NCBI RefSeq assembly: GCF_001441535.1
Contig: NZ_LMAU01000004.1
Coordinates: 1-64,000, forward strand
DNA: 64,000 nucleotides
Direction of reading: 5' to 3'
Source of the DNA: Tsuneonella troitsensis
GTDB lineage: Bacteria > Pseudomonadota > Alphaproteobacteria > Sphingomonadales > Sphingomonadaceae
The notes under the pieces were generated by a model. That model ran no database searches. It saw nothing but the letters and a program-made list of their open reading frames with translations, and was not told the DNA's origin. The position numbers and the translations under genes were made by a program. Positions 29,226 through 29,485 of this stretch are shown here, one piece after another (the first letter of the stretch is position 1; the number at the start of each line of letters is the position of its first letter).

Positions 29226-29485
29226 CCCGTCATTCCCCCTGATTCAACTTATCCACAGGGTGAGTCCTTGGAGAGTCCGCGTCAAGCGGGGAGTTCTTCG
29301 CCGACGCACGCAGGCATCAGTGGTTTAGAGAGAACAGAAGGTGTCCGGCACAAGATGTTGAGTCTGCTGCGAATCCGGCGACTCGATATCCTGCGGTGTT
29401 GCCGCGAAGACTCGCCTGACGGATTTTCCCTTGCCTCCCACCCCCGCGGGGTCCAGCTTCTCCACGGGTCGCTTGGGGAACGACC
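29226..29485. promoter_or_regulatory. ccrM upstream region: seven GANTC sites and a DnaA box
   Basis: The 260-bp gap between divergent ccrM and the sulfotransferase holds GANTC at 29241, 29262, 29273, 29360, 29371, 29380 and 29409. An exact DnaA box, TTATCCACA, lies at 29249-29257. On the ccrM strand the box reads TGTGGATAA, where a -10 element could also lie, 24-32 bp before the ATG. No TTAA-N7-TTAA CtrA motif is present. See the findings. Confidence 0.65.

Follow-up and report, generated by a model that had tools for sequence, protein, structure and literature searches.

The intergenic region upstream of ccrM was found to contain seven GANTC sites within 173 bp, at positions 29241, 29262, 29273, 29360, 29371, 29380, and 29409 of the window, which is the whole 64-kb stretch of DNA analysed here. 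The sequence-only reading had listed the same seven sites, and each of them was verified. The cluster probably serves ccrM as its own control region, an autoregulatory promoter that would sense methylation and be gated by DnaA; the sites are taken from the sequence and the sign of the control is assigned by analogy.

ccrM Locus and Neighboring Genes

The gene next to the cluster is, by its matches, CcrM, an N6-adenine methylase with a RAMA domain whose closest match is CcrM. The protein matched the NCBIfam CcrM model with an E-value of 3e-183 and 608 bits, which is under the model cut-off of 830 bits. It contained the Pfam domains N6_N4_Mtase and, at the C-terminus, RAMA, and it matched PDB entry 6pbd (CcrMI) with an E-value of 3.7e-153. 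These matches bore out the earlier claim that the adjacent gene encodes the GANTC methylase. The features of the locus are given below; GANTC sites carry no strand, and 85 refers to the set of close relatives including the window.

28089–29225, minus strand: ccrM, GANTC adenine methyltransferase, 378 amino acids (NCBIfam, Pfam, and PDB matches)
29241–29245: leader GANTC, not conserved (intact in 7/85 at these columns)
29249–29257, plus strand: perfect DnaA box TTATCCACA, covering the predicted start site (a perfect box in 84/85, at +28 or +29 from TTGAC in 82 of them)
29257–29262, minus strand: predicted −10 element CACCCT (CANNNT), 17 bp from TTGACG, with A at offset 24 and T at offset 28
29262–29266: GANTC fused to the −10 element (intact in 85/85; next base A in 85/85)
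29273–29277: spacer GANTC between −35 and −10 (intact in 74/85 at these columns)
29281–29285, minus strand: −35 element TTGAC of the predicted ccrM promoter (TTGAC-N14-GANTC in 85/85; single instance in 464 kb of the own genome)
29360–29364: array GANTC, start of the element GACTCAACATCTTGTG on the minus strand (intact in 76/85)
29371–29375: array GANTC, variable (intact in 23/85 at these columns)
29380–29384: array GANTC (intact in 73/85)
29395–29402, minus strand: GCMACACC block between two array GANTC sites (conserved in the alignment; the 8-mer is common in the genome)
29409–29413: distal array GANTC (intact in 85/85, and in 103/105 of the wider family alignment)

The intergenic region is 260 bp long, with ccrM on the minus strand on one side and a divergent sulfotransferase-like gene on the plus strand (from 29486) on the other. 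A tblastn search of 80 relatives found rnhB upstream of ccrM in 72/80 and the sulfotransferase in just 10/80; the divergent gene was therefore ruled out as the owner of the array. The cluster goes with ccrM and not with the neighboring gene. An Rfam search of positions 28900–29800 at an E-value of 0.1 gave no match, so no known RNA element lies near the cluster, and a single tRNA was the only match above threshold in the entire window. The ccrM gene was located at 0.55–0.75 of the distance from parB to the far side of the chromosome in four single-contig genomes of the genus (G002, G004, G007, and G009), where parB was used as a proxy for the origin and the ratios were worked out by hand.

Density of GANTC in the Genome

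The window contained 103 GANTC sites, compared with 328 in dinucleotide shuffles, i.e., one site per 621 bp where the base composition predicts one per 318 bp. In 464 kb of the own genome (the window and 20 further stretches) we found 760 sites, or one per 611 bp. GANTC has been reported to be rarer than composition predicts in Alphaproteobacteria generally (PMC3973325). Seven sites in 173 bp exceed the genomic density about 25-fold and the intergenic density, one per 396 bp, about 16-fold; the intergenic density is itself 1.7 times the coding density. A twelve-fold excess had been claimed earlier on an assumed background of about one site per 300 bp; the excess held, whereas the assumed background did not, the real sites being rarer.

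The ccrM cluster was the densest GANTC cluster in the 464 kb. At the mean GANTC density about 0.002 runs like seven in 173 bp are expected per genome, and 0.03 with the intergenic density applied to the entire genome, the latter figure coming from a cruder gene model. As the mildest control, the 260-bp region itself was modeled as a first-order Markov chain, which gave a mean of 1.7 sites and reached seven or more in 26 of 20,000 draws. When all 16 patterns of the form XYNY'X' were counted in this region, none but GANTC was above 3.

The 5' regions of genes (250 bp) were counted in the 464-kb sample with a codon-usage gene model, which recovered ccrM, folP, the sulfotransferase gene, and rnhB (with the rnhB start 21 bp inside the longest frame). 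Among 392 such regions, 254 contained no GANTC, followed by 96 with one, 34 with two, 5 with three, 1 with six, and 2 with seven sites; the two regions with seven belong to the two genes that share the ccrM intergenic region. Similar clusters, for which the sequence-only reading had proposed a genome-wide count, were rare in this sample, 389 of the 392 regions having 0–3 sites. Three other genes were devoid of such clusters: gcrA had 0–3 GANTC in 300 bp in 11 genus genomes, and dnaA and ftsZ had one each in the own genome, with starts picked by script.

The one further gene 5' region above three sites in the sample lies on contig C4 of the own genome at about 272.4 kb (L114:2386–2539). It has six GANTC within 154 bp, where a gene with a lytic-transglycosylase (DPBB_1) domain begins; this gene is presumably RlpA-like, and the region may be a second methylation-controlled promoter. 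Positions 1–1222 of the window contained nine GANTC in 1.2 kb, denser than the remaining window, across open frames on the minus strand. In their first 1.5 kb, contigs C1 and C5 of the own genome gave identical ParB-like and methylase-like matches with coinciding coordinates; an assembly overlap or a repeated mobile element at both ends would look like this.

Conservation of the Cluster

The best 80 of 302 relatives were fetched, of which 78 had at least 250 bp upstream of ccrM; L054 and L073 were too short upstream and were dropped. The set of 85 comprised these 78, the window, and six further genomes of the genus, and it left out the genus duplicates L002, L006, L009, and L010 and the window's own copy, L001. 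The 78 relatives (among the best 80 of 302) contained 4–8 GANTC in the 250 bp before ccrM, with a mean of 5.7; 0.28 would be expected from the GANTC density of the remainder of each locus. Across the 85, four sites were found in 7 loci, five in 31, six in 29, seven in 14, and eight in 4.

For wider sampling, 40 more distant Sphingomonadales (20 of the same family and 20 of other families) and 40 class loci from 40 other alphaproteobacterial families were hand-picked for genus and family spread, in either case out of 145 genomes with a match. Every one of the 20 same-family and 20 other-family loci contained 3–11 GANTC in 300 bp. The class loci contained 0–9, with none in 3 loci and about one expected from composition; these 300-bp counts, like the distances to the start, are rough because several start codons in the class set were mis-picked (TTG inside TTGAC). 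The richest upstream regions beyond the close relatives include L202, L143, L146, and L186, with 9, 10, 11, and 8 GANTC in 300 bp, respectively. A check of orthologous ccrM upstream regions, also proposed in the sequence-only reading, thus found the cluster kept in 85/85 close relatives and 40/40 more distant Sphingomonadales.

An alignment of 105 sequences (the 85 close relatives plus 20 less closely related loci of their GTDB family) contained intact sites near −188 in 103/105, −159 in 87/105, −139 in 91/105, −51/−50 (two columns) in 93/105, and at −40 in 100/105. There were 31 further GANTC columns, each in at most 6 loci. The positions of GANTC are largely fixed among relatives.

Core Promoter

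The core pattern TTGAC-N14-GANTC was present in all 85 close relatives, 15/20 same-family and 16/20 other-family Sphingomonadales, and 18/40 class loci, and the exact core was not found in the remaining 5/20, 4/20, and 22/40, respectively. In shuffles the mean was at most 0.13 matches per set. The base after the core GANTC was A in 134/134 core loci, although the search pattern left it free. The −7 position (offset 28) was T in 16/16 other-family and 18/18 class core loci, in 55/85 close relatives and in 6/15 same-family core loci, and T was missing in 30/85 and 9/15 of the last two sets. Because the A, and in the two distant sets the T, were kept though the pattern did not ask for them, a −10 element CANNNT is predicted 17 bp from the −35 element. 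The core is a predicted sigma70-type promoter with a methylase target fused to its −10 element.

A further GANTC was found in the spacer in 79/85 close relatives, 13/16 same-family, 16/16 other-family, and 19/21 class loci (core N13–15). At this site the GA and TC columns were 88–95% conserved in the 85 close relatives, whereas the middle base was 46% and the adjoining bases 66–75% conserved. The middle base in the class loci was A in 5, G in 5, C in 5, and T in 4, and it was skewed in the other-family Sphingomonadales (T in 11/16). GA and TC being held while the middle base drifts is the pattern expected of selection on the methylation target, which supports the view that selection would act on the target itself at the spacer site.

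The predicted core thus holds CcrM targets, two of them in the window, and the −10 site was kept in 85/85. The anatomy beyond what the sequence-only reading had noticed consists of the GANTC fused to the −10 element, the spacer GANTC, the DnaA box over the predicted start, and the upstream array. TTGAC-N14-GANTCANNNT is a pattern by which a Sphingomonadales regulon could be defined.

DnaA Box and CtrA Sites

In 84/85 close relatives there was a perfect match to the DnaA box (TTATCCACA on either strand), at +28 or +29 from TTGAC in 82, and the own genome contained three perfect boxes in 464 kb. The consensus box expected of a DnaA-regulated promoter was thus present at a regulatory position, which in these 82 is the predicted start site. 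At this place bound DnaA would be expected to block transcription. Only one of the 20 same-family loci (L130) contained a box at the start site, the others having boxes elsewhere or none; the start-site DnaA box is almost confined to the close relatives. DnaA control of ccrM has been predicted mainly where CtrA sites are absent (Brilli et al., PMC2877005).

The ccrM strand of the window contained neither TTAA-N6/7-TTAA nor TTAACCAT, a CtrA half-site (PMC3692519), within 300 bp, and no Caulobacter-type CtrA site was found in the window. The half-site was present in 37/85 close relatives, 5/20 same-family, 0/20 other-family, and 1/40 class loci, and in 36 of the 41 TTAACCAT loci that also carry the core it lies 27–29 bp before the −35 element. 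The earlier remark that the CtrA motif is missing is therefore correct for the window but does not extend to all of the relatives.

GcrA

GcrA is encoded in 11/11 genus genomes, the own genome included. The own gcrA is L211 (contig C3, 42427–43071), and those of the genus mates are among L210–L220. In 10 of the 11 genomes the Pfam match of GcrA was split in two, its N- and C-terminal parts being set apart by additional sequence, with open frames of 230–340 amino acids; in the eleventh (G008) the N-terminal part alone was matched.

Activation by GcrA is possible, but we do not consider it likely. The methylated or hemimethylated GANTC pair of the core would recruit GcrA, and GcrA with sigma70 would drive ccrM. 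Besides the presence of GcrA throughout the genus, a GANTC is present between the predicted −35 and −10 elements, as expected of a GcrA-dependent promoter. Such an arrangement marks a class of cell-cycle promoters in Caulobacter (PMC4287350), and fully methylated or hemimethylated GANTC promoters are said to be preferred by GcrA (PMC8116508). Against it stands the distribution of the core in the class set, where 31/40 loci were from genomes with a PF07750 match and 9/40 from genomes without one. The exact core was found in 13/31 of the former vs. 5/9 of the latter, so that the promoter type was not seen to track GcrA in a small sample that includes some drafts and in which a divergent GcrA could be missed. 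A permissive second search of the nine genomes gave no GcrA over the cut-off, and L201, one of the five core loci without detectable GcrA, has no spacer site. GcrA as the reader of methylation, a Caulobacter parallel named in the sequence-only reading, is not well supported because five of nine sampled ccrM genomes without detectable GcrA keep the core.

Upstream Array

The nearest neighbors among the upstream GANTC sites are 9–11 bp apart. Two inverted elements, one beginning with GACTCMANAT and its mirror with GCMACACC, were spotted by eye and are conserved in the alignment. The GACTCAACATCTTGTG pattern had no match elsewhere in 464 kb, and GCMACACC near a GANTC was found at two other places in the same sample. 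The middle base was 95–100% conserved in the 85 close relatives at four sites (−188, −159, −139, and −41).

The spacing of the array within the GTDB family gave a peak of 0.488 at 9.8 bp (21 loci), where the null maximum was 0.166; this peak is inflated by shared descent. With each rare alignment column counted once (31 columns), the value was 0.293 at 10.0 bp; 300 random draws reached 0.283 at most. As this descent-discounting test is only just beyond its null, we regard the phasing of about 10 bp in the GTDB family as suggestive. The other families of the order showed no 10-bp peak (0.070 at 9.5–11 bp), and the class loci had a 10.9-bp peak (0.131) that stays within the null. The best period in the other families of the order (L150–L169) was 6.6 bp (0.278), above the null maximum of 0.218, and shared descent may be its cause.

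A second, unlikely alternative is that the array counts methylation. A protein sensitive to hemimethylation, doing in Alphaproteobacteria what SeqA does elsewhere, would read phased GACTCA-type sites on one face of the DNA, so that ccrM would be on until nearly all sites are fully methylated, and the GANTC fused to the −10 element would let methylation act directly on RNA polymerase without GcrA.

Two further explanations seem improbable to about the same degree. The array might mainly boost the local capture of CcrM, a processive methylase, whose own promoter would then be methylated and shut first. Dense sites adjoining ccrM agree with such an antenna, as does the turnover of sites between lineages at a persistently high number; but the distal sites are fixed, with a conserved middle base and flanking blocks beyond what an antenna needs, and the 10-bp phase, if real, would be left unexplained. 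Alternatively, a sequence-specific regulator might act on GACTCA-type operators, the overlap with CcrM targets being incidental. The middle base is kept at four sites, and therefore a sequence-specific binding protein could explain these without methylation; the two inverted GACTC-containing elements with conserved flanks point the same way. At the spacer site, however, it is GA and TC that stay and the middle base that changes, both in close relatives and class-wide, and other families differ in site positions yet keep a high number. A mixed case would be shielding by a protein like MucR, which prevents the methylation of some GANTC promoters in Caulobacter (PMC5172544).

Chance or a compositional artefact has next to no probability: the higher intergenic density and the 26 Markov draws with seven or more sites speak for it, but such runs are hardly expected even once per genome (0.002, or 0.03 at intergenic density), and it was ruled out because the cluster is conserved in 85/85 close relatives.

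Proposed Control of ccrM

In the methylation-sensing, DnaA-gated promoter that we favor, passage of the replication fork would leave the ccrM promoter hemimethylated and permissive. CcrM would then methylate its own promoter and shut it, which would confine production of the enzyme to a single pulse. Early in the cycle ccrM would be kept off by DnaA at the start site, and the switch would be sharpened by a protein that sits on the upstream array and senses several methylation states. That full methylation would mean off is inferred from the published cases of Caulobacter ccrM and Agrobacterium gcrA. Caulobacter start sites with a GANTC between −35 and −10 switch on at 40–60 min (PMC4287350), and therefore the sign in ccrM could be the opposite. 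Methylation-state control, which the sequence-only reading had offered as the natural explanation, passed the tests of rarity, in 464 kb of the own genome, and of conservation, and stays the best reading; it is supported in part, with GcrA as the reader protein not well supported.

These observations bear on how the timing of CcrM is set outside Caulobacter. A CcrM target fused to the −10 element, with the core in many alphaproteobacterial families, would be a direct and testable self-shutoff for the methylase, possibly without GcrA. The DnaA box would link the ccrM promoter to the initiation of replication, and the array predicts a methylation-reading protein that could be fished with 170-bp DNA.

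Comparison with Known Systems

The leader of Caulobacter ccrM contains two GANTC sites. Expression of ccrM in Caulobacter crescentus is held to depend on the methylation state, or hemimethylation, of the gene (PMC2217572, PMC3973325), and the likeness to the present promoter lies in the same gene and in methylation-dependent expression. The Caulobacter promoter is driven by CtrA, whereas the window has no CtrA site; the present promoter has 4–8 GANTC, one of which is fused to the −10 element, and its predicted start site carries a DnaA box. Outside Caulobacter CtrA is often dispensable (PMC8116508).

The gcrA promoter of Agrobacterium tumefaciens contains a GANTC cluster of similar kind, with six sites in 250 bp, and is repressed by methylation, an effect also found in E. 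coli expressing CcrM (PMC11514494). It belongs to another gene, and gcrA of the present genus has, as given above, 0–3 sites in 300 bp. The GANTC cell-cycle promoters of Caulobacter (ctrA P1 and others, linked to GcrA) also contain GANTC inside the −35/−10 region, and they are mostly single-site, with more than one GANTC in 50 bp at 11 of 96 start sites (PMC4287350). The ccrM promoter described here contains two sites in the core and an upstream array, and some genomes in which no GcrA was detected retain this core.

In E. coli, the GATC clusters of oriC and dnaA are read by SeqA. They resemble the present cluster in their dense methylase targets, close spacing, and nearby DnaA box, and differ in the methylase and its site; here the cluster lies at the promoter of the methylase gene and not at an origin.

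The titles and abstract openings of the literature searched, which covered few subscription papers, did not name this core promoter or array. The promoter is of a known kind, the methylation-controlled cell-cycle promoters of Alphaproteobacteria, and it is a variant of that kind in the fusion to the −10 element, the number of sites, the DnaA box, and the array.
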